DNA from: Saccoglossus kowalevskii
Taxonomy: Eukaryota; Hemichordata; Enteropneusta; Harrimaniidae
Assembly: GCF_000003605.2 (NCBI RefSeq)
Contig: NW_003139318.1
Coordinates: 431,206-473,360, forward strand
Direction: 5' to 3'
Length of the DNA stretch: 42,155 bases
Translations under genes and position numbers: made by a program
The notes under the pieces: model-generated
What the model was told of the DNA's origin: nothing
Database searches by the model: none
The model's input: only the letters and a program-made list of their open reading frames with translations
Part shown: positions 1 to 41,553 of the stretch, in pieces
How the letters are laid out: each line of letters starts with the position of its first letter
Numbering within the stretch: position 1 is the first letter of the stretch

Positions 1-865
1 ATGGCATTTCTAGATAATTACGAAGATGTCATCAAAGCACTGAGAACAGCGTCATCTGAGTTTGGAACCAACGTAGCATCACGAGCAACTGGGCTGTTAA
101 AGTTTCTAAAGTCAGCAAAGTGCATACTAGGCTTGGTAGCTGCACTGCCTATCATCAAGTGTCTTGAAAATTTTAACAAGGCTTTGCAAGGTAATACCAT
201 TAATATCTCCGGTATGCTTGAAGCTGCTGAGAGGGTGAAAAATGAGCTGCAGCGACTTCGTTCGGAAGAAACCTTCAGGGAGGTTTTCAAAGATACAGAG
301 GAGAAGATAGAGAAGTGGAAACTTGACCCTCTGGTTATACGCAAACACAGGATTCCATCCAGGTATGACACAGGTGGAGGAGAATCTGATCTGTCAATTG
401 AAGGATTGTACAGGAGTGAATACTATAAGGTCCTGGACAGTGCAAGTGTCAACATGATAAACTACTTTACTTCCACAGACATAGAAGAGCAACAGAGGTT
501 GGCGTCAATGTTACTTGAAGGTGAATACCACCAAGATTTGGTGAACAAGTATCCAGAGCTATCCGACTCACTTCGATTAAACATATCTTTCTTCTACAGT
601 CAGTACCAAGCATCATCTGTAGAGGAATACAGAACGATTAATACTCGTCTCTCCTGCCAGCTCTGTAGAAGCAGAGCGATCTTTCAGTACTCTTCGGCGT
701 ATGAAGACATGGCTTCGTAGCACTATGACTCAGCAGAGGTTAAACCATCTTATGGTTTCTAATGTCCATCGTGAACGTCTGCAACAGGTAAACATCAGAG
801 AAATAGCAGAGGAGTTTGTCAGCAACTCAGACTCCAGACGCCGTACTTTTGGAAGGTTTGATTAG
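1..865 (+). pseudogene. hAT-superfamily transposase, broken 3' part
   Basis: The first 239 codons read openly and look like the late catalytic and insertion region of a hAT transposase of the ZMYM1/THAP12-like type (DUF4371 plus dimerisation region). Seen motifs include SRYDTGGG near codon 121 and YRSEYYKVLD near codon 137. The frame ends at 720. From about 635 another frame (second position) carries the typical hAT C-terminal dimerisation signature: ASSVEAERSFSTLRRMKTW, then TMTQQRLNHLMV, ending at a stop at 863-865. The two halves are out of frame, and the stretch normally lying between the helical region and this signature seems missing, so an internal deletion with frameshift around 625-645 is likely. 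The window begins at its first visible codon, so the 5' part may lie outside. It is probably a dead copy. Family level is confident; the exact hAT lineage is not. Confidence 0.8.
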
Positions 866-10605: not shown

Positions 10606-10768
10606 CGAACATACATTGCGATAAATTGGCAAAGTGCCAAGTAACAAGTACAGAACGGTGTGTATATGGTGTCTTCATTGCTTAAACGTGTTGCTCAGTG
10701 ACACGTTTTTTTGATTACTGATCATAATTTCAGATGGACCCCCTTCACATTTTTTTTTTGTTTTGCAG

Positions 10769-12874
<2,106 letters not shown>

Positions 12875-15800: not shown

Positions 15801-17912
15801 ACCATACATACCAGAACACTGTGATTTGATATCAGCATTTTATATTGTGGAACACTATCGTGAACATAAATAAGATCAATTTATATAACATCTATGACCC
15901 GTTTTACAAACCATGTTATAAGTATGCTTTCTCGTTTGATGATTTCTAATTGCCACACAAAATAAATAAAATGTTTACAATGGGATTTGTGCCAAATTGC
16001 TTAAAATTATTTACGAGACTACGATTGTTTAACTTTGCTTGCCCCAGGCAAACTCCTTTCCCAGTACACATCTGAACTTCACCAACCTGTTGTATTGTGT
16101 GTATGTGGTGTACGGAAGGACACAATGCGTCCTCGCAACACAATACAGCGTAATAAAACACATCTTATACGTAAAGATAATGACGTGGTCGTTTGAGGTC
16201 ATCGCCTGACATTCTCTAAAAAAGTCTAGTCAAAAAATAGTACATTTAGTTATTTTACAATTAGATTTATTGGAATAATGTTTGCTAGTAAATCTTAATA
16301 TTCTCGGTACCGCGACCTTCATCCAAGTAAAGCTCGTTCATATAGAGACAAGCGCGCAATCGAAGCGAAGCTTGGCAATGTCACGGTTCCTCCTGTACGC
16401 AGAGTTGGGGAATAAAGAGGCGGCTGATTTGATTTTCTCTTAATTATTCGGGTGACCCAGAAAAAAAAAAAAATAAAAAAATAAGTAACTATAAGGAGAG
16501 TTTTTTATTTGAGTTGAAGTTTATTGTGAGTGATTGGTACTTGTTATCATAATGCTGGCGGTGGTAAGATGATCAACATGGGATTAAACCTGAGGCACCC
16601 CGTAACACGACACACCTGTTTGGTGACTGTGTTCTTGTGAAAGCTGTTTGGTCACACATTTGCCGCAAAACCCATTATCTTTGGAGATCACATCTATTCC
16701 GATCTCTTAAAAAGACGGTGATCACCGCACAACCTGCTTTTGAATTTCCTGTACATATAAACAAAAAAAAGTATTTGCCTGCATTGCGCGTGTCTGATGG
16801 CCTCCATTTCAAACACGACGCAACGTAGACACCAATGCTCTTTAACATTATTTTGAAACATGTTTACCACAACACAATTATTATAAACAATGTATATTTC
16901 GTACTTTATTTCAGTCAAATGTATTAATAATATCTGAACGTTGTAATACCGTGCGAATCTTTTTTACAAACGTCTCGGAAAAAATGAGAACCATGACGGC
17001 AGGCATGCTTGTTAAATCTATACCAGTGTGTCCAAGTTCTACCTACATGAACTGTGTACGCACGTCGTTGAACTTCGTCTTTTGTTTTATTTCATTATCT
17101 GTTTAAAAAATAATCTTGACAATAATACGTTATATAAATACAAAGAAAATTGGAACTTGCAATGGTGACCTAAACTTTCCGTTGGTTGTCATGGTTCCCC
17201 ACTGCTAAGAAAGGAATCATGTTCTCATTACACAGTATCGGACGAATCCTTTACCTGTACACATACTTGATGACAGAAACCTGTACAGCCCGATTACAGG
17301 CCGCATTCTCTGCGTTGTACCCATGGCAACATGACGGCATAGAGACCCATTTAACCAATGCCGTTACTTTCAAATAGAACACAATAAAGGGCGATTGGTC
17401 CAGTGACTTGACTTTGTTCACCTGTTTATTGTTTCGCTGCTAGGACGAGATGAGCTGCCGTAATGTTTTATGTCAACGTCCAAATCAGTGAGGCCACTGT
17501 GGCGTCACAATACGTGTTGTCCATACTGTATTGTCGGCGTATAATTATTCGATTTTTCGCGCGAGAGGTTACGAGTACCTCGTAATTTAAAAGTGGCTAA
17601 CATATGGGAATTCTTAATTAATCGGACTAGTAGGCAGCGTCGAATTGTGGTCACTATATGATGAGCGATTATATATAAGAAGTTAAAGATAGGTCTGCTG
17701 GACGAGCCTTGAAAGGTTTGAAAAAGAATCGCTCTTTGTTCATACTATATAAGTGATTGTTCACGCAGTTGCAAAATCGAACTGACGCCGCAAGAAAGCG
17801 TTGAAGAGCAAGGTACTTCGGAGTTAAGTTCGGGTTCAACCAAGCGGAAAACGACGAATCTGCGACCAGCAACAATTTAAAACACTTCAGCAAAGAGAAG
17901 TCTTATATAACT
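12881..17912. other. intergenic stretch between the cGAS-like and Cbl-like genes
   Basis: I find no convincing exon. The main structure is the degenerate tandem array at about 14090-15240. CpG-containing segments occur near 15290-15640. The 5' untranslated region and promoter of the Cbl-like gene presumably lie in 17400-17912, but I see no clear motif. Confidence 0.5.
14090..15240. repeat. degenerate tandem array, unit about 177 bp
   Basis: A recurring string of the form GTGATT(T/C)(G/A)ATATGA(A/C)AA, then a GTCAAATTTCCAA-like segment and then ACTTTGCGC or ACTTTGCTC, recurs at about 14101, 14278, 14487, 14996 and 15173. Two intervals are 177 bp and one about 210 bp. The middle 500-bp interval contains unrelated or more decayed sequence. 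Single related strings occur at about 14052 and 15820. This looks like an old satellite or a tandemly repeated internal part of a transposon. Confidence 0.75.
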
Positions 17913-18114
17913 ATGCCTAATATAGAAACCATGTCAGAGAAACTGCGCCAAGTCGCAAGGATTTACCTGAAAATACTCCACTCCTTTTACAGCTTGTACA
18001 AAATGTTAAAAATACAGTTGCCAGCGAAGAGCATCCGCTTGGAGTCCAGCATGTCGCATTTGGGAATTTTCTTCGAGAATTTAAACGCGGTTCCAGATCT
18101 GCAGCTGACTCCCG
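17913..18114 (+). CDS. Cbl-like gene exon 1 (start, first helices)
   Basis: Starts at the ATG of MPNIETMSEKL and ends at CCCG|GTGAGT in phase 1. A second in-frame ATG six codons on (MSEKLRQVARIYLKI) is an alternative start. The peptide is amphipathic and helical with no signal peptide, so the product is cytosolic. Confidence 0.75.
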
Positions 18115-21100
18115 GTGAGTGCAATTAACAGTGGCATACTATTTAATTTTTTTGTTATGTTCATTGCATCGCTGAATGATTTATACCTTATCCCTCTCAA
18201 TATAGCAATAATTGATGCCCTGTGCCAATTTTACGATGCGGTGTACTTCGGACCAGTTTTAGTGGCCTTAGGATGCACGACACAAAGACGGCTATAAAAC
18301 CCTATTGTTTGAAATAGGACAAACATATATGAAGGATTAAGTTCATTGTTCCCGGTGGTCTATCGTAATCACCGAATTGTGTATGTATATGCATATTTAT
18401 CGACGCAAAATATTTCTACAGTCCACTGACAATAAATAAAATATTTTTTAAAAAAATAGGTTGTTTTTTCAACGTAATTCTGTATTCCAATGTAAAGTTG
18501 TTTGTATTCGTCTTTTGTTAGAGTTGATAAGACTGAAGTACCAGTACTCATTCGAGCACGTGATTTGCTGACTGGCTGCCTATTATAGTGTGCAGTAGAT
18601 CATAGATCACTGTCAATTTTGATCGGTTGATATAATGACTTGTTCATATAAACCACATTTGTAATGTGCAACTAGAAGGTGAATAGTGTATGGTCGTGTT
18701 TATGATTCCTAGCCTAGTGATATGCAATGTGGTATATAATGATATATATGTCGGTTATATATAAATATATATTTGGAAATGGTCAAAATGAGAATAAAGT
18801 ATTTACACGTGGCCTAGAATCACGGACACGACCGTTTTTACCATGCACACCGATGGTGCTTGTAGAGTAATAAATACATTATTAACTATTGACATATAAT
18901 TAAGCATTTTACATTTAAACGAGAAACGACCTTCTTGTGGACAGCATTATAAGTGAATCGGACACTACTTGTCAGCTTCATAAAACACTTGAATTTTGAC
19001 CAACTTATCTACGCATGCGTAGTAAATTCCAATCGGTATGTGAATTTACTACGCTGCTAGGTTGGAATATTTTCCAGCGGTGTTTGTGAAATTAAAACAA
19101 TATTTATTGTTTTCGACTGTGTTTCCTTTAGGTGTGTACATCAACTACATCATGTACACAACCAAGTTTTTACTAATATATTGGCCACTTATTTGACTGA
19201 ACTGTCCAGTGTTTGATTCTAGTTCTATTTTATAGATATTGAAAATAAACTACGGGAGCTAAGAGTGCGGTTGGAGGAAATCGGACGGCTGATATTTGCC
19301 GTTGGAATGAATGACAGCAGTATGGTCGGTGATATAATGACGGGTCAACGGGTGGCATTGGAAGAAAAAGCAAAAGAGTTCGCAGTTCTACGCAAAGTGA
19401 GTTAAGAATGGGAACCTATTTGATTACCTGTATAAACCATAGAGTTGTTTTCTAAGGTCTATGTATAAACACACTTTGTCAAAATCAAAACTAGTTAAAA
19501 ATAGGCGAATTACATGGTGGCAAATATAGTATTATATTGTCGAACGTACGTAATTATGTCGAGACAGTTCTTTTGTTGTTATTATCATGCCAAAGACAGT
19601 GTTTTGTTTAGTTTAGTTTAGTTTAGTTTTGTTTTGTCTAATATGTTATGAATCAATCTAGATCAATGGATGATTTAACCATTTCTAGTAATAGACGAAT
19701 AGTTTAAAACACTAATACAACATGGGCAAAGTTAAAAAGTTCGAATGGACATATGCAATAAAACATTGTTTGGATGAAATATCATGATCACAATAAATAC
19801 CGAACACACACTAAATGTAAATAAACCACCACGTCATCGTGCGTTCGACTCGATATAAGATAAGTAACTTTGAACCTCGGCACAGCAATTCATGTTTAAC
19901 TTTGTTTTAACGGACGAGAAAAAAAATATTAAATACATGTAATACACCCAGGTCTGCATAAATTGGTGAGTGTCACAGTGCATACGACGTCGGCTACACG
20001 CTAACTTAAAATATAGTATCATGGGATACATGGGCTGATGGATATATATATATATGATGGCGTCAAATCCGTAAAGCTCTGGTTCGCATACTTATTATAG
20101 TACGCCTTTTCGCTGTTCGTTTTTTCCAGAATTTTTTTAACGCGGCTGCCAGAAGAACCATCAATCCAGCAGCGCAACAACTCATCAAGAACGAAGATGG
20201 TACGTATCAAGTGTTCATATGACGTCATAATGTCACAATTATCCAGTAATAAAACACGGAAGTAAAAAAAAAACGAAAGTAAAATTATACTAAAACAATG
20301 ATGGCGCTCATTTTGTTCGGTCATTGTGTTTGCCGTTGCTAATCATGAGGTTATACATGAGTCTTAAACGCCATGCCCAACAATTTCATTATGTGGACAC
20401 AATTGTAAATGTGCTTGTTTGTTTGTATTTCTCAGCTCAGATAATATGGGAGGAGTGTTTCGGGAGCAGTAGACAGGTGGGTTCCTTGTTATTTGTGTTG
20501 TATCTTATACGACCGTATCGTAATTTCTCGCAAGAATCATTGCGACACCTACGTTATCTTCACGTAGCTGTGCCGCACAATAACTGCCAGACTTGGTGGG
20601 TAATATGCGTGACGAAGGGGGTCGATTGTGTGACTTCATCCGGGAAACAAAATTCCTAGAACGTTGTTATGGTTTATTGGAAAAGAAAGAAAGTTATTTT
20701 CAGACTTTTTTAAAGGGTTCGAAATACCTTATTAAAAAAAAAAAAAACTGGTGTATAATTTTCCCTAGTACTTATGTGGATAAGTAAATCAATACCGCCA
20801 AGTTTTAAAGTGGGGCGGGGATTTTTAGTCTGAAATGTTCGCCCAGGTTCCCTAGTACAAATAAATCCACTGAGCTGTGGAACTAATGTAAAAATGTTGC
20901 CAACCATTTTATTATTGTGGTCAAAGTTTTTATTTTACACCCAACAAATTAGTAACATGTAAAAGTCTCTGATGAATAATTGATATGCCTAGTTATGATA
21001 TTTTTCATCGTGCATATTTATTTAAAAGGCAACGTTTTTTTTTCTTCAAAAAAATGAAACGCGTGCTTAATTTCGCCACTCATCCATCAAATCATACTGT

Positions 21101-24100
21101 TTCTTTAACACTCTGACCAGTTCGTAAATAAATCAAATTTTGAACGATATTGCTTACACCGCGTCATTTTATAATCAATGATCAGACCTAAGTTAACCGC
21201 GCTTTAAAATTTCAGACAAATAGCACAATGTATGATCTTGCTTCCATTATTTTCTTTTTTGTTATTTTAATATTGAAGTTTAAAAAGAATAAAAATTGTG
21301 GATTCAAATTGGATAAGGTATTATTATATAAATACAGGTGCAACTTACAGCATTCTACAGTAAAATCAAAGAAATCCTAGGAAAAGAACCACCGTGTACC
21401 ATGGATGACTTGAGACCTTTCTTTGGAAGTAAGTAGATGATGTAATAATAAACATATATGCATTACAGATCACCTAAATGAGACAATGGATTCAGTATCC
21501 ATATTCCATTAAGTAACGGCAGTTGTCACCATAGCAAGACTCACACTACCTCCCTTATTTAAAAGATAGTTAGTCGATATTCGGTTGCCTATGCTGAAAT
21601 GCTGCGGCATTCGTAACACTCGTCACCGTGACGTACGCCTCGTGCCATTGTATGTAAATAAGGAGGCGGAAAGACCTGCATTGTTTATTTCACGATAACC
21701 CGGCTTTCGCCATTTATACACCTTCCATATTTTATTTTATTGAAAAAAACACCCACAAATAAACAAAAGACTGTATGCCACCGTGGCACGATTTTTAGTC
21801 TACATTAAAAATAAAAAAATGCAAAATATTAGGAGAAAAAAATAATCAACAATTGTAGAATACAAATTGTTCATTGAATGGAAAGTGCGTCCGCTGAAAT
21901 ATATTCACCAACCGATACCAGATGTTTGGTGTTCGTTTCTTTAGGTGATATGGTTGACTTGAAAAGTTTCAACGTGTTCGTCAATATCGGGAACGCCAAC
22001 CACGTGTACGCCCTCAACGACCAAATACTCGTCGGTCATGGTAAATCGGTGACGAGTTTCCTGTCATTACAACGTCGACTGGGTCATTTACATACTCCGC
22101 TACTACGTCACAGGGATGCACAGCGAACTGAACAAAAGACGAGCAGGAAGAAACCATCAACGGAGGTAACTACTACTATAGCGTCGGCTTCGAACTGGAA
22201 TCCTCAACCACAGACAGATCGATGGTCGTGGATTCGGTCGAAAGTCACACGCTGGATTAACCAGGTAATATAATATATATATGAAAAAATATGTGGAAAA
22301 TATTGGCAACAAATGTTTACAAGACATTGCAAGCATTACCGAATAGAAACTGTGTACATACCTTATATACATTGTATCTCGTATTGCTAGGGCCGTAACG
22401 CTATAGGAACTGCTCCCTCACATCGTGGCCCAGCGCTCTCGGCTTTCATCAATCAAAACAAAATGCGCCATTCTAAACTACGTCGTGTGTTTGAGGTCAC
22501 ACCGTGGTAAAATTGTAATTACATCTATTATATGATAATTATTTTTTTTTTGTCTTTTATAAAAAAAAAAATTTATTCATATATTTTCCCAAAAAAGTAC
22601 ATTACTTCAAAATAATCTTACATGTCAAAAAGATATACAAAAAGATAATTAACAACATAAAATGAAGCAATATATGATAATTATATGATAAAACCTTTAT
22701 GGACCGTGACTGGATACGTGACCGTGACTTTTGCCCATCTTCACACAGCATTGAAAATAATTTATCCATCGCCTGCAGTTTTCATTTTTTGTCTAACATT
22801 TTTGTTTACATTCATTAGTGCAATTATAAAATATGAAATCTGCAATGATCGTGTACTAGTATGTTACGTATATATGTATATATTGCGTCGACTTTACGTC
22901 ATTTCTGTGTCAGTACAGACACATTATACGAGTGTCAGTATCTGTCCCGCGCTTAAATCCCATAGACGTAACATAATTGTCAATTTAGTGCTAGAGCTAA
23001 CAAAATGTTCATACTCTTTGAAGTCCTGACAAAGTCGGTGATGTCTTCTTTCACAAAATAAACTTACTTGTTTACTTTACTTGTTTATTTCAAATATTTT
23101 AATCAAAACCAGTAAACAATGTGAAATTGTTTCAATTTGGTTCATATTGGAAAAGGAATTGTGGAAAATACATTAAAACGTTGCACACATATTTTCGTCT
23201 CAGTGCATTTATTTTGCGCCCTCTGTGTCCAATTAAACAAATTTTTTAAACATGTTTTATTTTGTTTTTCAACAGACAACCGAATTGAGCAAGTAAGTAG
23301 TATATGTGTTTGTTATTGTTTTATTACAGTACTTTTATGATGATTTAGATTTGATTAAAATATCTTTCAGCGTCATATTTCAACCTTATTCTTGGTTAGT
23401 ATGTTTGCAAAATTTTCTGTATCATGAAGGCAGCTAGTCATTTGAAAATATATGACGAATATAGTATAATTTCAGTTATTTAATAATCGATTTGAATGTT
23501 ACACTTAGTTTTCCGGTGAGGGCGCACTAACTATCGCCGATCATTTTTGGCTAAGTAGAACAATATGAAATATACAATGTGTGGCTCTGTGGTACGCGAC
23601 ATGTTTGATTACGTCATCAACATGTAGACAGCATTTGTCAGCATTCATACGTGACCAGCCAAATCACTTTCTAATAAATAGGTACGTATTTAGCTTATTT
23701 AACTGATTATGACATAATTTTCTGCGAAAGAGGGTGGGAAAAATGACGGAATTGACGACGTACTTCGACATATATAACGCGTGACACTGAAACCCACAGA
23801 TTAGAATATGTTTTCAGCATACATGCTGTCTTACATTCATCCGAATTTGTACAAATTTCACACTGCAGGTATTTCTACGGACGTTGTGACAGACAGGACG
23901 TAGACGCTGGTCTCCATAACGACACACCCGGGACGTTTCTAGTTCGGTTTGGAGACAGACCTCACGAAACCAACCAACTATGTGTATCCTTTGTGCACGT
24001 CATGCCGTACAAACAGGACAACAGTTGGAAGGAATGGTTCATGCGAAAACACGTGCCAGTACATCAGATGATACACTATGGATGTGAGTTATTTTGTTGT

Positions 24101-26342
24101 TCAACGCACTGGTTGCGCCCGCTAGCGACGAAACACTTCTAAATGTTGCAAGGGACTCCGTTTACAATATTAACTTTATTTTTGTTCTGATATGTGGTCT
24201 GTCCATCAATAACAAGTGCACATAAAATCGATATCCAAAACGTGGCCCGTCCGATAGAACTGATTGAATTTATTACAATTTGGTTACAGTGATACTTTAA
24301 TAAGGGTATATGATGAAAGCCACGTGAATTACTTTGTCAATAAACAGCGCAATACGCCAGGTTTCATTCGACATAATTTATTGTTAGCGAAGTTACTCAA
24401 AATTTGAAGGACTACGTTTTTCTGACAATACAATTTACTGTGGAGTACACACCTGGGAATGTAAATCTCTTTCTATGCAGTCACGTGGTTTATCACGCTG
24501 AACATACGCTGCGCTGTGAAAGAGGAAAACAGGCGTTAAATTCTCTAATTACGCCCTCTTTTCTATTCTGTTAGATGTCGAAAGCATGTCGGAGCCAATC
24601 ACATGGGAGGAAGGACTGACCCATCGACATAATGTCTGCCGATACCTAGGTTAGTGTCACGTTGAAAGACACACTGCGCATGTGCAAACACTACTGTTAT
24701 CTGGTTGGTTTACAGCGCGCGCTACGCTATTTGTTCAGACACCGTATAGGCCGACAGCATTGATAATAGTTTCCTAAATTAGTGTTTCATTTTACGTGTA
24801 CCCAGAATGCATTGCTGTAGTACCCTATTCACTCTGCCCTTGAGCCATAAATCGTGGAAAGATAAAATATTCTATTTACTGAGTAACTATTTTTTTTTTA
24901 ACTATTAGTTACGCGGGAGGGTCGTCACCTGCGCACGCGCGGGAATTGAGTCCCAAGCGACGATAACAACACACGCCAACAACGCAAAGGATCATGGGAA
25001 GGCGCTTGTTTGTAAACAATGACACTCTATGGCCATCTGACGCATGCGCTGGTGACGACACCCCCGCTTTAAGTGATATCAGTGTATTGAATAGCGCTTC
25101 TGAAAAGTCACACCAAAGGAGAGTCCTACACAGTAAAACAAATCATGAATTACCGCTCATTCAACTAGCTGATATCTTGACCCAAGCATTATTTATTGTG
25201 ATGTCTCGTACATGTATATTCAATTTTTAATATGTTAAACGCTGTATTTGTTACCATGGTCCCTACAAGTTACTCATGTCGAAATCATATATATCATTTG
25301 TGAGCACGTTTTTGAACCTCAATGACTAATGCTAACAATTTTGAGGAGTATACTAAAAAACAATATTTATAGTGAATTTGTACTTCCGACCTCTGTGAGG
25401 AAATATCGTGCATACGACCTACTAATTAGAGACTGGGCCCCTATGTCATGGGATTGCTTGATCGTCATGCAGATACGTGCCAACGTTTCACAGTGCGCGG
25501 CGAATTGTGAGAAAGGTCATATTCAAAAAAATGCGTATGGCTATTTAATTTAACGTTCAGCGTCGTAATTGTGTGTCGAAATGACATCAAAGCGGGAGGA
25601 TGGTCACCTGCGCTCGCGCGAGAATTGAGTTCCAGGCGACGATAACTACACACGCTAAAACGCAAAGGCTCATGGGTAGACGCTTGTTTGTAAACAATGA
25701 CACGCTATGACCATCTAACGCATGCCGTGCGCAGGTGACGACTCACCCCTTTTTAAATAACCGCAATTCGGCCACTTGTGTCCAACTACGGCAACCATAC
25801 TGTCACGTGGTTTGGTCATGGGCTGCTAAAATAAGATATCACCCATGACCAAAAACGATTGAGATAGTCTATGTAAACGTAACAGTTTGGTTGCATTAGT
25901 TGGACGGCAGAATTTAATGTCATTTCGATTCACAGCAGTTGCATGTGCTAGACGTAAAAGCCATACACAAACATGTTTTATTATGACCTTTAATTTATTA
26001 CTGTGAATTTGTCTTATTTTATTACAAAATGCATCCTTGAATGATTAAATGGTGTAGTTGTAGGGGTTAATTCTCTCATGACTCAGACGATGATACATAA
26101 TTTATCATCATATCGAATATCCATCGATGTAAATGATGTCAAGTCAGACCAATCACAAAGCAGTGTTATGAAAGCAGGGATTGCATAACCGAGAAATATT
26201 TGACATAAGTGTAATGTGATTCATACCCCCGTCATATATTTTTGTTATTTTTTTCCCAGTATTCCGTGAATTTGAGAAGTTTCTGGCCGCATGTACAATG
26301 GCGGAAAATATCAATTGGTCTGAGTTTGAAATGAGAAGCTGA
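17913..26342 (+). CDS. Cbl-like helical bundle, EF-hand and SH2 protein without RING
   Basis: Ten exons with consistent phase: 17913-18114, 19236-19396, 20130-20199, 20436-20476, 21338-21428, 21945-22264, 23276-23292, 23869-24083, 24575-24649, 26260-26342. They give 424 residues and a stop. Residues 1-144 are helical (KLRELRVRLEEIGRL), as in the four-helix bundle of Cbl. Residues about 138-205 match the Cbl EF-hand-like domain: IWEECFGSSRQVQLTAF aligns with the FWRKAFG...VPWKSF region, and VDLKSFNVFVNI with the second helix. After a basic, Ser/Thr-rich insert of about 75 residues (around 212-290) comes an SH2 domain (296-390): YFYGRCDRQDVDAGL, then GTFLVRFGD with phosphate-binding Arg327. Cbl uses this module to dock on phosphotyrosines before a RING ubiquitylates the target. 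No linker helix or RING follows. The FLVR strand is closer to STAT than to c-Cbl, so a STAT-like relative is the main alternative. The name is inferred from motif order. Confidence 0.8.
19606..19636. repeat. GTTTA/GTTTT pentanucleotide run
   Basis: Four GTTTA units followed by GTTTT units in an intron of the Cbl-like gene. Confidence 0.85.
20130..21428 (+). CDS. Cbl-like gene exons 3-5 (end of bundle and EF-hand-like domain)
   Basis: Exons 20130-20199, 20436-20476 (41 nt) and 21338-21428 join in phase to read QLIKNEDAQIIWEECFG and then VQLTAFYSKIKEILG. The order and hydrophobic pattern match the junction of the four-helix bundle and EF-hand in Cbl. Skipping the 41-nt exon puts the next exon in a frame with an early stop, which argues that it is real. 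Confidence 0.75.
23276..23292 (+). CDS. Cbl-like gene exon 7, 17-nt microexon
   Basis: Flanked by TTTTTCAACAG and GTAAGTAG. It encodes TTELS plus two bases of a lysine codon. It is needed to shift from phase 0 (exon 6, ATTAACCAG|GTAATA) to phase 2 (exon 8). Without it the SH2 exon would be read out of frame. Confidence 0.7.
23869..24083 (+). CDS. Cbl-like gene exon 8 (SH2 domain core)
   Basis: Preceded by a TTTCACACTGCAG acceptor and ending GGAT|GTGAGT. It encodes the alpha-A helix region and the beta-B strand GTFLVRFGDRP with the invariant arginine, then LCVSFVHVMPY as beta-C/D. The codons are clearly protein-like. This is the best single piece of evidence for an SH2 domain in the window. 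Confidence 0.85.
24909..25072 (+). mobile_element. TTAA-type miniature element, family 1, copy A
   Basis: The ends are inverted repeats: GCGGGAGGGTCGTCACCTGC on the left against the complement of GGTGACGACACCCCCGC on the right. TTA(C) lies before and TTAA after. The interior includes GAATTGAGTCCCAAGCGACG and TTGTTTGTAAACAATGACAC. It lies in the last intron of the Cbl-like gene. Confidence 0.85.
25587..25756 (+). mobile_element. TTAA-type miniature element, family 1, copy B
   Basis: Same interior strings as copy A, more diverged, with right-end target TTAA and a left end reading TCAA. It sits about 515 bp from copy A, in the same orientation and the same intron. Confidence 0.85.
25811..25855. 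repeat. short inverted repeat
   Basis: TTTGGTCATGGG at 25811 and CCCATGACCAAAA at about 25842 form a 12-bp stem with a loop of about 20 bases. It is of unknown meaning, perhaps the ends of a tiny deleted element. Confidence 0.5.
26260..26342 (+). CDS. Cbl-like gene last exon
   Basis: A strong acceptor (TTTTTTTCCCAG) opens 27 codons reading VFREFEKFLAACTMAEN and then an acidic tail to TGA. The reading frame closes here, so the product lacks a RING in this transcript model. The tail is helical and not a known domain. Confidence 0.65.
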
Positions 26343-28803
26343 GTCGGTGCATCACGTATGTTTTGTGGATCGTTTGTGGATATTTTACTGGCTAACTTCG
26401 GACTAAAATATAGTTCCAAGGCCTTAGAAACCGTACCGGCCATACCGGCTATGGCCAGATCACTTCTCCTTCGGCCCACGTCATCATACACCTCGGACAT
26501 ACGGCCCTCGATGGATGGCCGGACCAACTAATTTTTGCTTCCTACGGCCTTGAGTTCTCGACTAAACTGTGTGTTTTTCACAGATTGTTATTTACAGCGT
26601 TCGCCTGGAACATGACACAGCGCCCTCAGTTGGTTTTACTTCTGAGATGTTTAATATTGTAACTTTTGAATATAGATAGTTAAAATAATAATAATTAGTT
26701 TAACATGGATCGTATTTTGTTTTGTAAAATGTGAAATATATGACAACTCGGATTAATTTAATACCAGTATGGTATAGCAGCGCAGATTGTCCGAGGCGAA
26801 ACCGAATGAGGTAAAGTTTATATACTTACAATATAAAGTAGCCTGTATATAAAATTAATTGTAAATGTAAATTAAGCAATATCTGACATCTTCGAAGTTC
26901 TTTGACGTGAGACGTAAGCATGAGTCAAAGTTGTCCGGTCGCCCTGTAAAATTATGACTGAATAGTGACGTCACTAATTACACGCAACCAACTGTATTAT
27001 GGCGTGTGGTGATGTCGAAAACAACTGTGGAAATATATGTATGTTGTTGTAATGTATCTTTATATTAAACACCGGTAATAAATTGGATTTATTGTATTGA
27101 TACCTGGTTATTTCGTTGGAGGGATGATGTAACAAACATTTTGCCGACGCACCTTTTTTAAATAAATACAAATATGGCAATGTTCTTGACTGAATTCAAC
27201 GTTGAAATGTTATTAAATGCACGTCGTTGTTTAAAGTGTCAACCATTTAAAATCATGGGGTGGCTGGGAGAGTGTGACCAGTCAATTTTTCACGGTTTCT
27301 GTACACTTTTATTTTCAACAGTACTTTTCTGCTTCCATTTTTCCCTCTGCACATTTTTTAACAAATCGTTTATTCACCCTCATGATTTCAAATGGTCGAG
27401 CCCTAAATGACGTAGCATCATCAACAACTTCATGTTTTATTTCAAGGACACGAAGTGTATATTTAACAACGGTAATACCACCATTTGAACACTCCGTAAC
27501 TTTGAATGACGTGTGTGGTATCTACGCAAAGAGTTGATTAGTGAGTGATATTTTAATGAAAACCAACCGATTTTGAAATTGCGGACGACCACACTTACAG
27601 CGTGAGTATTCATCCGAGTAATTTTTCCCCAAGTACACTTAGCTCGGTTGAATCCACAACTTATGGAACATCGATATTCTATATTTTTGGTAAATAAATA
27701 GCGAAAGTATTCTATCTTTTTTGTTACACAATTTTTCAATTTACCTACAATTCGTTTATAAAAAAATCAACTGTAGAACTCCTCGCAACACAACACATAG
27801 ACGAGGGACGTCAAAACCCGGGACACTTGTGGAAACTTATAAACGGGTATGCGAGGCACCCAAGGGGTATATAAATTCAAAATACTAGGTAAGGGTCCTT
27901 TTTTGACATGTTCAATAACCAAAGAATTCTTTTTTGACACCCAGAAATCAAAGGGATTTTACTTTTGATGTGTTGATATAAAGTGTGATATGTAGTGATA
28001 GCTAATATATACACAATCTGATTAAAATCCGATGTAGGTATGAGGCTCCATTTTTTTAATGACCCTAAGAGGCGACTGGGACACAATTTTCTAAGAACTG
28101 ATTAACGGCAAGAAAGCCCAAAAAATCGATATATTCAAACTAAAATACAAATTAATATAATATAAAGGGTCATAAAAAACAAAACAGATCGATATATTCA
28201 ATATCATTGAGTGGGGTTTTCTTGTAAATTTGTTAAATTTGTTTCAAGAAGAAGGTTTTTCTTTAAATAACATTTTCAATTGGTTTTGAGAAATTTGGTC
28301 TCCCGAACCGCGATTTTTCACAAAACGCTGGTTAAGTTCCCTCACACACATATGTAAGTAATACATGGTCGAAACAAATCTTAGCAAGACACGATTTGGG
28401 TCGTGACTTTGGTGCGGATTTAGAAAAGAATTAGTCCAGTGAATGTAAAACGTTAATTTAAAAATAAAACAAATAACGCACACATTTAATAGAAATAATA
28501 GCAGTTTGCAGCCATCTCACCGTGCAAAGGAAATCAAACCCAAAACTGTATTCCCAGCTGTATACATTTATTCTTACCAAAGGCCAGTGGCCTACATGTG
28601 CTTGATATTAAAGAGAAATACAGAAGTAAGCGTTGACGTTCAGTTACCCAAGTTCCATAAAACATTACGACTGGAAATCAGTTACATGTTCCCCTCTTAA
28701 TTTAAATACCTTGAAGATATATCTGTTAAGATTCTCGGTGTACATATATGAGATGTCAAGAACGTACTGTTTATAAAATATCCTTTCATTCCCACCAACC
28801 AAG
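26343..28803. other. intergenic stretch with repeat-like DNA
   Basis: A possible inverted-repeat element occupies about 26395-26570, with AGTTCCAAGGCC at the left and its near complement GGCCTTGAGTTCT at the right. The remainder, including frames at 27274-27739 and 27877-28086, shows no domain. The region 27800-28250 has a low-complexity, repeat-like character. Confidence 0.4.
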
Positions 28804-33500: not shown

Positions 33501-36500
33501 TGCAACAATTGAGGGGACGTGACAGCTACAGCCATAAACTCTGAAGTCGATGACGTCACTGGTATTTACGACGTAGTACAATAAAACATAATACTAACAC
33601 TGTAGTGTGTAAATAAAGACACGTGATTTATTGGTGTATTTCTACTATTTTAAACATTTCACGCAACTTCTTGCGTGGTGTGTTTTTAAACGTTTTACCA
33701 TCGTCAAGTTAAAACGAAGAGCAATACTTCTCTCAAAAAACTCGGTTATTTTTGTGGAATGAGTTGTATATCGGATCTTTATCGAATACAACTAGTACAA
33801 AATGCACATGGAAACCAGCGAAAAAAAAAGTCGGGTTTTCAAAATACCGTCGATCTTTTATACGCATGTCGTTCATTTCGCCTCGCATTCAGAAATGGTG
33901 GTCAGGCCTGGTCTGGTTGCCGACGTCGACTGTTCACTCAACAGCCCACTGGAGTACATTCATGTGCTTATCCAATTAAATACGTCGCACATATTTTCGA
34001 AATATTTGTCCTATATCGGCTAGAGCGATACAAACCGTTGACCAGTTCCGTCCTATGGCGTATAACCAATGTTTTCCTGAAGTGTTTTTTTTTTATGAAA
34101 GTCTTTGTAAGAGCGAGAAAGCAGTTTTAAATATTACATAACTTCTGAGAAAGACATGACGCTTACGTAGTTCTGCATTATGCAGTCAAAATTATAAAAT
34201 GAACAGTACAAATGAAGATGGACTATCGGGATGGTTAAAATAAATTTCCTGATGTCAGTGACGGTCCTTGAACCACAATCCCGTTCCCTACCCATTTACC
34301 AAGCATTGCGAGAATTGTTTAAAAACCATATCTTTTGTGGCTCCCAATTTTGAAACTCGGACGTAAATTTGTCGGGATGAAGAGTAAACACAAATTGAAA
34401 TTCGCGACAAACACATTATGTAAAAATTTTAAATGAGTAACCGCTTATATTTGGAATATGAAAATATATATGTGATTAAGACTATTTCTCCGATATAAGT
34501 TGATACTTATATGTGTATCAGAAGCGACTGTCATTCCATATCCATCCGCTGATCGGTCAATTATTTACGAACTTTGCATCTGTCGTGTTTAACTGTTTCA
34601 AAATGCGCTGTATCCGCGTTCACTCGCTCGTAACAAATTGAAAAGTTCAAACAACGTGTAATTAGAGATATGATTTGACAGAGTATAAATGATTTTTACT
34701 ATTTCTCAACCACGTTTGACAGGACACAGTATACCAGATGGGGACTGGGGTACTCAAAGCAATCTTCGCGGTGCCTGTCTGGTCCAGTACTTCGCATTGT
34801 GAAATGTTTTTTAAAGCGGGGCAGTCGTCATCTGCGCATGCGTCAGATGGCCATATCGCGTCATTGTTTACAAATAAGCGTCTACCCATGAGCATTCGCG
34901 TTTTTAGCGTGTGTTGTTATCGTCGCTTGGGACTCAATTCCCGCGCGTGCGCAGGTGACGTACTGTGAATGCACTAACTAACTAACCATTGGGTTTTATT
35001 TTTGCTTACGAGTAAAATCCGCTAAATGGAATCCACGTTAACAAGTAAAACAATATAACTCATTTAATAATACGTAAGACTACTATTCGACAGACTAGCA
35101 ACGCCAATTGTTGTAGGTGTGAATTAGGGATTACGCCCGTAGGACGCGTGCCTCGGCAGACTTTGCTGGTACATGTAGTTTAATGACACAAGTTGACCCG
35201 AAGATTCCCGAACGCACTCGCATTTACCTGCTTCGTGTGTTTTCGTAATGTCGTTTTAGTATCAAGCGTACAATTGCATACTTTTTGACCAAACCGGAAA
35301 TGCAATCTGTGTGTTTTTTTACTCTTCGATCGTTCTTGTTTCCGTTTAAAGCGACCAGTTTTTGGGCGAGTTACAGCATTTTTAACATCTCCTACTTTCG
35401 TCTACAACATTGATGAATGTATAATGAGCAACTTTATGGTAGTATTTCTCATTAATTTGAATTTTCCCAGAATATGTGAAAATTTTTCTATAAAAGTCAA
35501 ATGGTGGTGTTGGCGTTAACAGTGTTCCTTTGTTTGGACGCTTCGTAGTTTGAAAACTTATGCTCCCGCAACTAAGCGATTGAAATCATTGAATGTTCAG
35601 TAGGAAGCTGATATTTTAATGAAGCATACATTTTAGCTATCTCTATTCTTGTTTATAATTACAGAAATTACAGAAATATAGAGAATAAACACAGAAATAA
35701 ATTGTATATGCTTTGTCGTATTTATGGAAATTATTTAACCAAGGAAAAAAGGAAAAAAAGATAATGAACTACGAGCCAACTAATAGGAGTACTACCCCCT
35801 GTGTACATCTCACATTATCTCGCGTTATTTGATGAAATAATAAAGGACATCGCGTTAGTACGTTATAGTCGCGTTAGCTCGATGGCTTGTTTATTGGATT
35901 AAAAAGTTAAGTCCCAAAACAAACGTGGCACGGATCTGACCAAGGAAAAGGCCGCGTTGCCAGTCTATCTATAGTAGTCTGAAATTATACAAAATAATAC
36001 ATGTTACTAGCAGTCGTTGACATCGAATCAAATTGTGTGTATTTTAATAAAATTTGATTTAGTCAACTGTATATAAATAAGCTATGACAAAAGGAAACAC
36101 AGAGCTCTTTTGAGATACTAGTAGACTAAGTAATATTATTACCTCAGACCACTAATAGGATGAGGCTTATAGTAGGTGTTACACAGCCAATCAACGAGCA
36201 ACGCAACGTGTGCGCAACGTTGTTTGCAGACAATCCAGTGTTATTCAATCAGCCAGTTTCAGTTCGAATATACTGTAGAATACTTTATTTTCGCTTGGAA
36301 TTTATTTTTGCTATTTTCGCTGAAAAGATGATTCTGTGAAAATAAAATCTAGCGAATATACTTTTTTTCCTATATTTCACATTAAACTCATCAAAAATCA
36401 GTGAAAATAAATTCCATACGAAACGCCCAAAAAGCCTTTTCAGCGAAAATTAATTCCAGCGAAAATAAAGTATTCCACAGTATAGTTCAGTGAAATTTAT

Positions 36501-39500
36501 AAATATTTTTAAAGATGATGGAAATACTTTTGTTGCACTAAGATTAGTGCGCGTTCACGCCGTTTTTTTCTTCAAAATTTGTGTGCACGCACACTTTAGT
36601 CGTTTTCAATATCCCGTCAAACGAATACTTCAATTTGTGTTGCCAAAACGGACGTTTCGATTTCACGATATACTAGTCTGATTTCATAAAATTGTCAAAC
36701 AAATCTATTCAATCGTACTCACATTCGTTCACACTGTTTCATACTGTATTACAGAATATTCTATGTTGCATCCCGTAGCATCAAGGTCTAGTACTATCAA
36801 TACTGTGTTGTTGTTTAATGAGAATGATTTTGTTATTCTGAATAGTTTTACGATATGGCCTTTGCTCTATACAAATGCTTGGGTGATTCCCATTATTGGT
36901 CTCATTAATATCGTCCCCGAATTCAGGTTGCGTAAATTCTGAAAATCATAAATTTAAACGATCGAACATTCACTTTCTAATACTTTCCACCCACACATAT
37001 GCATGCCTGGAAACCCATTTACTTGAAATAATAAATATGGGCGGTTAGAAAAATTCACCAAATATGGTAATCACACGGTCTCGCGATAGTCACCTGATTT
37101 ATACGTCACCGTGATGGGTTAATACAGAACACGGACTCTTTAAGTATATAGATTCGCTATATAGACTTTGCAAGACATACAATAAAGTTTTACGTCGTCG
37201 CCTCACATTGTCGGTTACACTGCTGTGGTTTACATTTGATATATACATCTCAAAACAAATATGAAGAGGAGGTTAAAGAGAAGGTAATGTGATGTGGCGG
37301 AAGAGATCATGTCATTAAAGATAACAGCATCTGCCCCGGGCGAATGTCGCCCTGCTTGCATGGGAAGTGTCTCTGATGATGCGTTGGGCGTTGTGTCAAG
37401 TGATATAGTATAACACGGTTTTATGTGGCGGGAACCCAAAGATTGATTAGCCAACCAGCCCAATAACCAGCCCAAGAGGCGAGTATACCCCGACTTTGAA
37501 CTAGTAGTCAAAATCGAGCGGCATACTCGCTTCTGGGGTGGCTATTCCTATTATGATAGGCCACTGTTCCAGGAAGTACTAGTAATCGTGGTTACGGCAT
37601 GCCTTTCCAATACGAATTAATCGACTTTATTGCCAAATTAGCTATATCTTTGCAAAAATAATCATAATTTTAAAAATTATAGGACTAAATGTGAGGGGGC
37701 GTTATATTGTTAGTATAATTTCAAAAGGAATATCATCGTAACAAGGTATGTATTGCTGATATATACATGTTGTATACATGTAAAAAGTTATAGAAACCTA
37801 AATACGAGTTAGTATGAGCAACCAATTATATTAGTTCGGTGTCAAGAGACAACAGGTTAACGATAAAAGAACACGTTGCATCGGCCGGGAATCGAACCCG
37901 GGCCTCCCGCGTGGCAGGCGAGAATTCTACCACTGAACCACCGATGCTTGTTGACCTCGCTTATTGCATATTCATAAGTTGTGTTAGTCGAACATCTGCG
38001 AAATAATTATTGAATAACTGAGTAATTACTGTCATTAACCTTCAAATAATAGATGGCAATTTTGTTACCAAGGATGACTATAAGATATAATAGCGCCCTC
38101 TATCGACGGAGCTTTTTCAGTAACATCAAAATGACATGAACGGGTGAAGGCGGTTGTTAAAATTGATTTTATGTGGTCGTTCGTTGCGACTGAGAGTGGT
38201 CTACGAAGGAATAAATTTACATAGATAATGAACACAATCGAGGCAAAAGGCAAAAGGACCTACAGACCCACAAAATAATAGGGAGCTAACTGGTTGATAA
38301 GAATAACCCCCATTTGCATTGAATAATACGTTTACGAATAAATGAAGACACGGGAATGCAACTACTCACCATTTGACCGGTGACCTGGAATTTTGAGAGC
38401 CAAATTAGAGAAAATACCAATTCTCGGGAGCGGACATCTGGGCATTTTCACAAAAGCCGGAAACTCTCAGGAAACGGTATGTTTAGATAGTAATTGAAAA
38501 CTCCCCTGGATAGTGTAACAAAGATTAACCCTGCATTTACAACATATATAAATTTGGTTGCCCAAAGATTATTTTGTGCCGTTTTCTCGACTTTAGCTAC
38601 TAGTATTTTCACCGGCTCTTCGGCCGACGTTCCACAGCAGCTCGTGTCTAAGTAGCGTAGAACGTTCTGTGACGTAGCTTTGCCCCCGACAATTTCTGAA
38701 AAATAACGCCTTATTTCGGATTTCAAGGACTGAAAACAGGATGGCCGGTTGGTACTTGTTTGAACGATAAGTGCCATAACCAAGCGGTGAACGGTATTGC
38801 GAGTGCTCCTCCGGACTCGAGTTATTTACGTCATGAAAGCGCATATAGTCGCTTGAGGGCGCAAGAGAAGGCGTTTGTACCACAGATATCTTGAAGCGGT
38901 CAACCAATGAACGGTCTAGAATTTCTGTGGTTATATGCCGTATCATGATTATGGCAGATTATAGAAGATCAAAAAACTGAAAACCTAATACAACCGTATA
39001 TGCAACAAATTGATTGCAAATTAACTTATGTGTTTTTACCACAGCAATCTACACTCTAAAATTCGCGACAGTATTGGTCTGTAAATCCACGGGACATGGC
39101 CCCGCCTGCACCCCCTCTGGATCCACCACTGGGGTTGTAGCCCGGAACAACCCTCCGGGTCTCGCGGTGTTAACTAGAAGATAAACGTAAATAAAAACGT
39201 ACTGTACTACCAGATATAGTGGTGAAAACAGTGAGCGGGAGCCTGACTAGCACTACAAAAATCCCACGCTAAGCACTCATTGGCTAAATTAAAAACAAAT
39301 TACTACAGGAGAAAATTATCACTGTTCTCTCTTACGTTCGTACAATTTAAAGTCAATAATAGTTAGCCGTGCTAGTTTTCTAACAGAGAGATTTCGAGAT
39401 AAAATAGCGAATACATTGTCAGTAACATCTTGGCTTATCTTTTATCATTGCAGAAAACAAGCCAGCTGGGCTTATTTATTACTATTATTACCAGCTGTGA

Positions 39501-41553
39501 CACGCTATAGCTGATTGGCTACTCGCGCTGTCAATCCAGTACAGTGCAAATAGCAATAACCATTTAGCTTAGATATTAAACTGGCAGTGGGTATATATTT
39601 TTAAACATTTATAATAACTATGTGCCCGTTTTCTTTACAGTGTTGGTGTATTATGTGAATGGAACCGTGTCACCTGCAGCTACACTGGAGCCTTGTCCCT
39701 CTGGCTGGATCGAACTTGGAGAGAAGTGTTATTTGATTGAATATCAAGACCAAAAAACTTGGGAAGAAGCGCGTGCCGCGTGTAGGTCAATGCCAGGCGC
39801 AGATCTCTTGGTGTATGACAACGAGGAAGAAAAACTGTAAGTCCAACACGTGTTTCAATCGCTAGGCGCCACGCCTTGGTGCTAAACTAGTACCATTACC
39901 CATTCAAATTTACGCAAACGGACGCGCACTTTCTATGGGATATCGTGAGCGTCCCGAAAAGTAAAATACTGTATGTTCATTGGTCGATTTCTGGGTCATA
40001 GTTTACAATGACTATGACATTATCATTTAACCAATCAAATATTATTTAAGTGACATACAGATTGTAGACGAGAAGTAAAATGGCTCAGACGTTTTCATTT
40101 TTGGTTCGATGCAAAATTACCACGACTGCATGGTCTAATCTGAGGCATATTTATTGCTATTAATTATTCATGATATTCAGTGACGTATTGATCCTAGGAG
40201 TGAGACACTTCCAAAAAGGGGAAAATGAATGTGCGCTTGCGCTAAGGATTACATACGTCAGGTCACGCTCGTTTATAGCTGTGTGCAACAGATCAGATCA
40301 AATGCTGCCTTTTTCATTGGTTGGCAGCTCACGGGTCATGCAAATCTTAGTATATTTATACCTCAAAAATACAGCTGTAGGGGCGCGGCAGAACAGACCA
40401 GTTAGGGTAATTTTGTGTCAACACGAACGATTCTAGAAAGCTGTTCTTAAAAGGACTTTCATATAAAACAATAAAATTGCCACAAATGGCCAGTCTAGCT
40501 TGATGACGTAAACAGATACTGACCTAGGCATATTACGTTCTTCAAATTTATTTTTTTGATGATGGAGTGTACTAAAAACTTTTAAATGCTGGAGTCGAAA
40601 TAACATATAATGTCAAGTAAGTTTGTTAAAATTCAGCTTTTCCGAGGAGAGGCAAAGCAACCTCACTAGTATCTGTAAAAATAAACAACATAAGTATAAT
40701 CTATATTCGTATAGGTTTTATCGATTAACCCAAGACAAAGATTAACTCATGCTTACAGCTTTCCACCATGAGAGACTTTATGACCGCCGAGATGTCGTTG
40801 AGAGCGAGAAATCCACGAGGTGTGCGAGAAATCTGCGAGATTTGCTTTCGTCCATCAAAAAGTGTTTTTATTCTCTCACATCATCGCGTCTACTGCTCCA
40901 AAATCATTGTTTCATAGATCAGTGGAACAATAGTCGCGATGACGTAAGAGAATGTAACCATATTTGTGGGTGAAAACAAGTCTAGCGAACACTGCTTTCA
41001 GCGAGAACTCGGTAGTCATTTACCTCAAAGGGTTATTCAATTTAAAGCGGGAGGGTCGTCACCTGCGCGCGCGGGGGAATTGAGTCCCAAGCGACGATAA
41101 CAGCACACGCTAAAAACACAAAGGATCATGAGTAGAAGCATGTTTGTAAACAATGACACGCTTTGGCCATCTGACGCATGCGCGGGTGACGACTCCCCCG
41201 CTTTAAATGCAGATATTTAGAGGACTATTGAGTGACTTTAACACGAATAATTATTGATGACGTTCTCAAATCCAACGTGCACCCGTATATTTTACTGAGA
41301 TACTCCATAATTTGTCCAGCCCCGGTACCAATCACAGTTTACACTTAACTATTTTACATTACAACTGTGTTTTCGTGCCATTACAGGTTCATCAACAGCG
41401 AGCTGGAAACTCTGACAGTTGACATGCATCTATGGATTGGAATGATAGCAGAAAGTTTATCATTTGGTGATTTGCGTTATCATTGGATCAACGATCAAGA
41501 GCATGAAGTGAATATGTCCAACTGGGAAGCTGGCCAGCCAGATAATGCATATG
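30516..41553 (+). CDS. C-type lectin-domain protein, 5' part
   Basis: Join 30516-30555, 39641-39836, 41387-41553, continuing past the window. The start MSTRIILILYLIN joins across a phase-1 intron to VLVYYVNGTVSPA, giving a signal peptide or short membrane anchor. The lectin domain follows: CPSGWIELGEKCYLI, TWEEARAACRSMPGADLL, MHLWIGMI and NWEAGQPDNAYG. WIG and the early cysteines are standard fold marks. The QPD triplet is the galactose-type calcium-site motif (EPN would be mannose-type). The closing WND and last cysteines are outside the window. Phases agree at both introns (1, then 2). The last donor could be at 41553 or 41557. The 9-kb first intron holds a tRNA gene and several mobile elements, so the link between the signal exon and the lectin exons is less sure than the domain itself. 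Confidence 0.7.
31491..31540. repeat. imperfect 10-bp tandem repeat
   Basis: Units of AGTAGTACAC occur four times, interrupted once by GGTAAGACAC. Confidence 0.8.
32250..32382 (+). mobile_element. TTAA-type miniature element, family 2, copy E
   Basis: TTAA on both sides. The ends are AGGGAGGTGGTCG and its near complement CCACCACCGCCCT. The interior has CAATGTATTTTACACGCGTT and ATATCGAACAGGACGCGG. Confidence 0.85.
33016..33135 (+). mobile_element. TTAA-type miniature element, family 2, copy F
   Basis: Shares GTATTTTACACGCGTTG and the GGTGGTCGC-like left end with copy E. It shows TTGA on the left and TTAA on the right. The right half is diverged. Confidence 0.8.
34811..34960 (-). mobile_element. 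TTAA-type miniature element, family 1, copy C (truncated)
   Basis: An inverted copy relative to A, B and D. TTAAAGCGGGGCAGTCGTCA at the left is intact; at the right, sequence stops at CAGGTGACG without the final CCTCCCGCTTTAA. Confidence 0.85.
36267..36484. mobile_element. long-hairpin miniature element
   Basis: The left arm (36267-36328) and right arm (36435-36484) are imperfect reverse complements. They share ATACTGT, GAATACTTTATTTTCGCT and TTTTCGCTGAAAAG in left-arm sense. The interior has further GTGAAAATAAA units, so the repeats are nested. No protein is encoded. Confidence 0.85.
37877..37947 (-). tRNA. tRNA-Gly (anticodon GCC)
   Basis: The complement starts GCATCGGTGGTTCAGTGGTA (acceptor 5' arm and D arm). 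It has a CTGCCACG anticodon loop with GCC, a GGTTCGATTCC T-loop (B box) and a 3' arm CCGATGC pairing fully with the 5' GCATCGG, with an A discriminator. It is 71 nt without intron or encoded CCA, normal for an animal tRNA-Gly(GCC). Internal A and B boxes are intact, so it should be transcribed by RNA polymerase III. Confidence 0.97.
38448..38783 (-). CDS. possible small membrane protein, unrecognised
   Basis: A 111-codon frame from ATG has protein-like composition: SLKSEIRRYFSEIVGGK, then EEPVKILVAKVEKTAQ. A hydrophobic segment near residues 80-92 (FIYVVNAGLIFVTL) could be one membrane span. No family is recognised, and an overlapping 117-codon frame at 38593-38946 on the same strand shows this may be chance. 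Kept at low confidence. Confidence 0.2.
   Translation of the reverse strand: MVMALIVQTSTNRPSCFQSLKSEIRRYFSEIVGGKATSQNVLRYLDTSCCGTSAEEPVKILVAKVEKTAQNNLWATKFIYVVNAGLIFVTLSRGVFNYYLNIPFPESFRLL
39641..39836 (+). CDS. C-type lectin exon 2
   Basis: Acceptor TTTTCTTTACAG, donor AAACT|GTAAGT. It encodes the N-terminal lectin beta-hairpin and first alpha helix, with the conserved paired cysteines CPSGW, KCYLI and AACRS. Confidence 0.88.
41042..41206 (+). mobile_element. TTAA-type miniature element, family 1, copy D (best copy)
   Basis: TTAA is perfectly duplicated on both sides. The ends are AGCGGGAGGGTCGTCACC and the complement of GGTGACGACTCCCCCGCT. The interior matches copies A-C. It lies in the lectin intron between exons 2 and 3. 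Confidence 0.9.
41387..41553 (+). CDS. C-type lectin exon 3
   Basis: Acceptor TGCCATTACAG, starting FINSELETL after the shared leucine. It contains WIGM, the long-loop region and GQPDN. It ends at a GTGGGT donor within the window; later exons are not visible. Confidence 0.85.

Follow-up and report, generated by a model that had tools for sequence, protein, structure and literature searches.

We found a gene in a 42,155-nucleotide stretch of the Saccoglossus kowalevskii genome (hereafter the window; C3045:431206-473360) whose product we take, with a probability of roughly 0.55, to be a RING-less phosphotyrosine reader resembling the TKB module of Cbl proteins. The predicted protein would begin with a region that is probably helical, followed by a Cbl-type but degenerate EF-hand, a linker and an SH2 domain, and it may serve as an adaptor or else cap its target sites. 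Like the Cbl TKB module (Pfam Cbl_N, Cbl_N2 and Cbl_N3; PDB 1b47 and 2cbl), it has the order N-terminal region, EF-hand-like segment, SH2. A diverged paralog of the same plan occurs elsewhere in the assembly. This reading comes from sequence comparison, and we do not claim membership in the Cbl family, because neither a RING nor a Cbl-type SH2 was found.

Ten exons on the + strand join into a single frame of 424 codons plus a stop codon at 26342. All nine introns are GT-AG and their phases agree. The start codon was taken to be the first in-frame ATG within the open stretch 17805-18125. The exons, together with the corresponding parts of the paralog, are as follows.

17913..18114, + strand: exon 1, start codon and beginning of the N-terminal region (residues 1-67 and one further base); the paralog's exon 1 was modelled from the equivalent ATG
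19236..19396, + strand: exon 2, N-terminal region; identical length (161) and equal phases in the paralog
20130..20199, + strand: exon 3, end of the N-terminal region; 73 nt in the paralog, with equal phases
20436..20476, + strand: exon 4, IIWEECFGSSRQ, encoding the opening helix of the EF-hand-like segment; AVWGICFGRNNK in the paralog, 41 nt in both
21338..21428, + strand: exon 5, VQLTAFYSKIKEILGK..., EF-hand-like segment
21945..22264, + strand: exon 6, degraded EF loop and helix, conserved VG..KS...F..LQ.RLGHL motif, variable linker and a WSWI stretch ahead of the SH2
23276..23292, + strand: exon 7, a 17-nt microexon (TTELS), fused with exon 8 in the paralog model
23869..24083, + strand: exon 8, SH2 core with the FLVR-type arginine R327, assigned from Pfam and profile SH2 matches and the phase-2 intron boundary
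24575..24649, + strand: exon 9, encoding what is presumed to be the C-terminal half of the SH2 (EEGLTHRHN), outside the Pfam SH2 match
26260..26342, + strand: exon 10, FREFEKFLAAC and the stop codon; the paralog's candidate last exon reads YRELELLLESC, with its stop equally placed
27077..27082, + strand: AATAAA, a possible polyadenylation signal 735 bases past the stop codon

Comparing the joined protein with the organism's own assembly (572 Mb) gave 12 matches. Nine are exons in the window, and the other three lie in order on another contig, C1416 (E values 4.9e-5, 5.5e-5 and 3.15). At this second locus we assembled a paralogous gene of eight exons with 404 codons, followed by a 22-codon last exon that ends in a stop (426 residues). 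Its boundaries were hand-picked from canonical splice sites adjoining the similarity, and its last exon is the top-scoring downstream candidate (score 29, next 24), found with the preceding intron phase imposed. The exon lengths in the window and the paralog are 202/211, 161/161, 70/73, 41/41, 91/91, 320/317, 17+215/235 (fused) and 75/84. All seven intron phases that were freely compared are equal, while the eighth is uncounted because it was imposed. The paralog model departs from the window gene's structure in one respect only: the 17-nt microexon is merged with exon 8.

The two proteins are identical at 118 of 390 aligned residues (30%). Their EF segments align with a score of 164, where shuffles average 23.7 (0/2000 reach it), and their N-terminal parts with a score of 100, where shuffles average 27.9 (0/3000). 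The exon 6 motif (window about 21990-22130) is also strongly kept between them, and exon 6 alone matched no Pfam family in either paralog. A reverse search with the paralog returned 11 matches, all in the window locus or the C1416 locus. Genome searches with either protein, in which only the best candidates were scored, revealed no family members besides these two loci. Because open frames are conserved at this distance, the two loci are most likely diverged functional genes that form a two-member family ending after the SH2, and the window locus itself is most likely a functional animal gene. It is scarcely credible that the locus is instead a pseudogene in decay that makes no protein: the ten exons are open with canonical splice sites, and a paralog at 30% identity is open with equal phases. 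The original prediction of ten exons in one 424-codon frame is therefore borne out, both by the joining and by the paralog.

The EF-hand-like segment provides the link to Cbl. It contains the sequence IWEECFG..VQLTAF (residues 148-164), and when segments of 69-70 residues were searched against Pfam, Cbl_N2 was the best match in both paralogs (window 17.4 bits, E 0.007; paralog 17.0 bits, E 0.0093). The match corresponds to approximately residues 140-200, encoded in exons 3-6, and to model positions 3-66 and 3-58 of 84 in the two proteins. None of ten shuffled segments matched Cbl_N2, and the best match of any kind to the shuffled segments had an E value of 0.15. An ungapped 32-residue match to human CBL, with the common pattern IxxxDAxxxWxxxFGxxxxVxxxxF, gave scores of 41 and 44, which were reached by 4/3000 and 2/3000 shuffles, respectively. 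(The human CBL sequence used agrees with 1b47.) A profile built from the two EF segments ranked CBL first among 2002 sequences, consisting of CBL, the organism's own STAT linker and 2000 shuffles.

Compared with the Cbl calcium loop (the second EF loop), the corresponding loop is three residues shorter here in a weakly anchored alignment. Of the calcium-loop residues of Cbl, Glu240 is replaced in this alignment by Ser in each paralog, and Asp229 by Gly or Lys. Given the shortened loop and the Ser in both paralogs, the segment is unlikely to bind calcium. The Cbl-like EF-hand that had been proposed is thus upheld in part, for its first EF-hand motif: Cbl_N2 ranks first in both paralogs and shuffles rarely reach the CBL score, whereas the match stays below the Pfam cut-off and the calcium loop is degraded.

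Searched at full length, the window protein yields SH2 as its sole Pfam family, at 18.7 bits (E 0.0019), short of the cut-off (21). Its C-terminal fragment scores 21.0 bits, and the paralog 22.1 bits as a whole and 24.7 as a fragment. Among further weak Pfam matches (E 0.025-0.16), SH2_2 is a related domain that we did not count as chance, while KIF21A_4th, MYRF_ICA, DUF4867 and Zn_ribbon_16 were taken as chance. A two-sequence SH2 profile retrieved 91 PDB sequences at E values up to 10, with SYK (1.2e-4), Dictyostelium STATa (1.5e-4) and GRB2 (5.5e-4) among the best. The FLVR-type arginine, R327, lies in GTFLVRF in strand B, and is kept in the paralog, which has GSYILRF. The second half of the SH2 would lie beyond the Pfam match.

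The intron before exon 8 is in phase 2: it interrupts the codon that precedes YFYG, one base ahead of this motif. We inspected 21 of the 25 SH2 matches in the genome by eye, and 8 of these 21 other loci have an AG acceptor at the equivalent position, the organism's own STAT gene included. Because the intron is this common, it supports the SH2 boundary but no particular SH2 subfamily. The predicted SH2 domain with an FLVR arginine is thus well founded on R327, profile E values of about 1e-4, conservation in the paralog and the boundary intron.

Several results weigh against a TKB-like reading. The Cbl_N2 scores of both segments lie below the curated cut-off of 22, whereas human CBL as a control scores 143.9 bits. 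Moreover, the segments were excised by hand; the whole paralog reaches only 12.7 bits (E 0.2), while Cbl_N2 is not matched by the window protein at full length. CBL had an E value of 0.079 in the EF-profile ranking, which falls short of the HMMER inclusion threshold, and a profile that extended the EF segment into the beginning of the linker retrieved no Cbl from PDB, the first matches being STING chains at chance-like E values (0.08-0.11). About 100 residues separate the Cbl_N2 and SH2 matches, compared with one in human CBL. The Pfam SH2 match spans only model positions 1-44 (the first 42-44) of 77. The Cbl-type SH2 profile, Cbl_N3, matched neither the whole proteins nor fragments of either paralog (human CBL control 154.8 bits), and the 60 matches listed of the 91 that the SH2 profile retrieved from PDB contain no Cbl chain. 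Similarity to the human CBL SH2 was reached by 1914/3000 shuffles for the window, i.e., it is at shuffle level, and by 142/3000 for the paralog.

The N-terminal region of about 140 residues is conserved between the paralogs, but it has no Pfam match above chance and does not match Cbl_N (human CBL control 184.7 bits). Its comparison with the four-helix (4H) part of CBL was reached by 501/3000 and 1666/3000 shuffles, i.e., there is no similarity. A crude propensity profile gives a mixture of helix and strand in this region, and likewise in the true helices of CBL. Judging by position and length, the region may be a helical bundle, but the four-helix part that had been predicted has no detectable sequence link to that of Cbl. 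Profile searches accordingly recover part of the proposed module, namely SH2 and a sub-cut-off Cbl_N2, while Cbl_N and Cbl_N3 are unmatched.

Such results could also reflect a plain, lineage-specific SH2 adaptor with an N-terminus of non-Cbl origin and a short EF likeness that is due to chance or to a convergent helix-loop-helix. We regard this explanation as less likely than the TKB-like reading. It is consistent with the fact that SH2 alone reaches its curated cut-off, with the failure of the EF profile to find Cbl in PDB and with the shuffle-level comparison to the 4H part. It accommodates less easily that Cbl_N2 is the top family for both EF segments even though these are only 43% identical to each other, that most of the model is covered and that shuffled segments never matched it. 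In addition, the Cbl_N2 match is situated as in Cbl, ahead of the SH2 and following about 140 residues (135 in Cbl).

STATs have an EF-like linker followed by an SH2, and the SH2 core of the window protein is closest to Dictyostelium STATa (1uur) and to the organism's own STAT. Searches of PDB with the single sequences gave STATa as the top SH2 match (E 0.012 and 0.004). The similarity to the SH2 of the own STAT was reached by 51/3000 shuffles for the window and 1/3000 for the paralog (5/2000 and 1/2000 with shorter pieces); for scale, 45/3000 shuffles reached that between human CBL SH2 and the same STAT SH2. By these counts, the SH2 strand is nearer to STAT than to Cbl, as had been predicted. 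However, SYK, GRB2 and VAV2 in PDB are matched too, so we read the domain as a general SH2 rather than a STAT-type SH2.

The protein could in principle be a shortened STAT relative that retained the coil, linker and SH2 and lost the DNA-binding and transactivation parts, thus serving as a dominant-negative STAT or a scaffold. Besides the SH2 similarity, the FLVRF/ILRF strand fits this idea, as does a W-x-W-I stretch ahead of the SH2 that we take to be reminiscent of STAT. Nonetheless, it is improbable. The similarity of the EF segment to the linker of the own STAT was reached by 1101/3000 and 69/3000 shuffles (298/2000 and 49/2000 with longer segments), and neither paralog matches STAT_linker (PF21354), for which the own STAT scores 82.1 bits. 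There is no Pfam match to a DNA-binding region, nor is there room for one, since the N-terminal region directly adjoins the EF-like segment. Residues 397-424 have no tyrosine that could act as a dimer switch; the last tyrosine, Y396, is inside the presumed SH2 region. The exon 7/8 intron agrees with the own STAT in position and phase, but we rejected it as proof of STAT kinship because it is shared with so many other SH2 loci.

A RING-less, TKB-like protein is further suggested by the gene's 3′ end. The RING pattern C-x2-C...C-x-H-x2-C-x2-C does not occur in any of the six frames of the window, which includes 15.8 kb downstream of the gene, nor in 30 kb around the paralog, although such scans would miss a RING interrupted by an intron. 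Together with the matching position of the stop in the paralog model, this corroborates the prediction that the protein lacks a RING. It is very improbable that the gene is a complete Cbl with a RING exon that was overlooked because it lies outside the window, is split by an intron or is alternatively spliced. The appeal of this idea is that gene ends are unprovable without RNA and that the pattern scan is blind to an intron-split RING, but both paralogs have their stop in the equivalent exon and both surroundings are free of the pattern. The original prediction also held that the phosphotyrosine-binding module is always followed by a RING. This is too strong, as v-Cbl is described as the TKB domain alone (PMC6602201).

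We detected no canonical Cbl in the assembly with Cbl_N3, Cbl_N or the human TKB, although a search miss is possible and some stretches consist of N. A query comprising the human TKB and linker-RING had 39 matches, all within its last quarter (the RING; best match 44% identity, E 4.7e-4), which we take to be other RING proteins. Six Cbl_N2 matches in the organism's own genome (E 0.35-5.1) were translated, and none was convincing as a Cbl. The identical search method recovered other conserved SH2 genes from the assembly, presumably of the ABL, GRB2, SHP2 and FER types. The absence of a canonical Cbl is a lead only, and could be due to a gap, masking, a search miss or real loss. It does, however, weaken the earlier suggestion that the protein is a competitor that shields sites from true Cbl, since this role needs a Cbl.

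Cbl proteins end phosphotyrosine signals through ubiquitination. In c-Cbl, the 4H part is reported to pack on the SH2 and complete the phosphotyrosine pocket, and the EF-hand to form a wedge between these two parts (PMC2943896). In the window protein, the N-terminal and EF parts would pack on the SH2 as in the Cbl TKB, shaping the pocket, and the resulting unit is predicted to bind, and so read, phosphotyrosine. It is plausible, at about even odds, that the protein works like a TKB unit. With no recognised catalytic or DNA-binding part, it might be an adaptor that bridges partners, or a cap that covers phosphotyrosine sites. The cap role is modelled on the way that v-Cbl, which is carried by a retrovirus, blocks ubiquitination. 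According to a description of v-Cbl, it consists of the TKB domain only and keeps receptors from being ubiquitinated, most likely because it blocks Cbl recruitment (PMC6602201).

Comparison with known systems helps to delimit the proposal. As described, v-Cbl likewise has a phosphotyrosine module without a RING (PMC6602201), but it is a truncated Cbl oncogene, as opposed to the diverged, two-gene animal family found here. Relative to the Cbl TKB, the 4H is unrecognisable by sequence and the SH2 is not Cbl_N3-like, in addition to the missing RING pattern, the shorter calcium loop and the longer distance between EF and SH2. In Dictyostelium, CblA is described as a Cbl ortholog presumed to target proteins for degradation, and LrrB as an SH2 protein with leucine-rich repeats (PMC3085826). 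Both are SH2 proteins that this source describes as adaptors, a likeness drawn by description only, and both the presumed degradation targeting and the leucine-rich repeats are unlike the window protein. At the level of titles and abstract openings, we found no description in the literature searched of a RING-less form of such an architecture in an animal genome.

If the TKB-like reading is correct, a conserved reading part on its own would be a natural counterpart of v-Cbl, giving the animal a built-in means to adapt or protect phosphotyrosine sites. It would also have a bearing on the question of a single origin for the pairing of EF and SH2 in Cbl and STAT. Two diverged copies within one genome make the proposal testable. 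A more far-reaching and rather unlikely idea is that the genes represent an old, separate animal family with the architecture 4H-EF-SH2 and no effector, standing between Cbl (by its EF-hand) and STAT (by its SH2). Such a family could be a surviving branch of a module ancestral to both, or a Cbl-derived adaptor in a lineage in which canonical Cbl is missing or highly changed.

We now note properties of other loci. In the organism's own STAT gene (C1295; L032:8826-9602), the strand B-C stretch LRYSDGSIGGVTIAWVAQDPNTGK is tandemly repeated several times from the SH2 exon onward, as if a coding piece of the SH2 had turned into a minisatellite. A dispersed repeat that reads like GRRLFVNN...WPSDAC, or its reverse, occurs in the window at about 24910-25140 and 25470-25750, both in intron 9, and at 34665-34965. 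The same repeat is present at the paralog and STAT loci (L021:8345-8617 and L033:2489-2581), and probably constitutes a mobile element family.

Upstream of the SH2 gene, by 5 kb, is an apparent Mab-21 gene of the cGAS-like-receptor type. It is composed of a Mab-21 nucleotidyltransferase exon (E 3.8e-8) and a Mab-21_C exon (E 2.3e-16) at window 10702-12874 on the + strand, and its first catalytic acid appears to be replaced (DGFEVM). Despite this neighbour, a link of the SH2 gene to STING was rejected: the EF segment matched two STING chains with chance-like E values of 0.08-1, and there is no STING Pfam match.

Long open frames occupy window 1-862. Positions 1-717 have no Pfam match, and we presume that the frames resemble the C-terminus of a hAT-type transposase. 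An exon at window 39580-39837 encodes a C-type lectin-like domain (Pfam UL45, E 1.4e-5; Lectin_C, E 0.014; both below the cut-off). Finally, a tRNA-Gly (GCC) lies on the minus strand at window 37877-37947.

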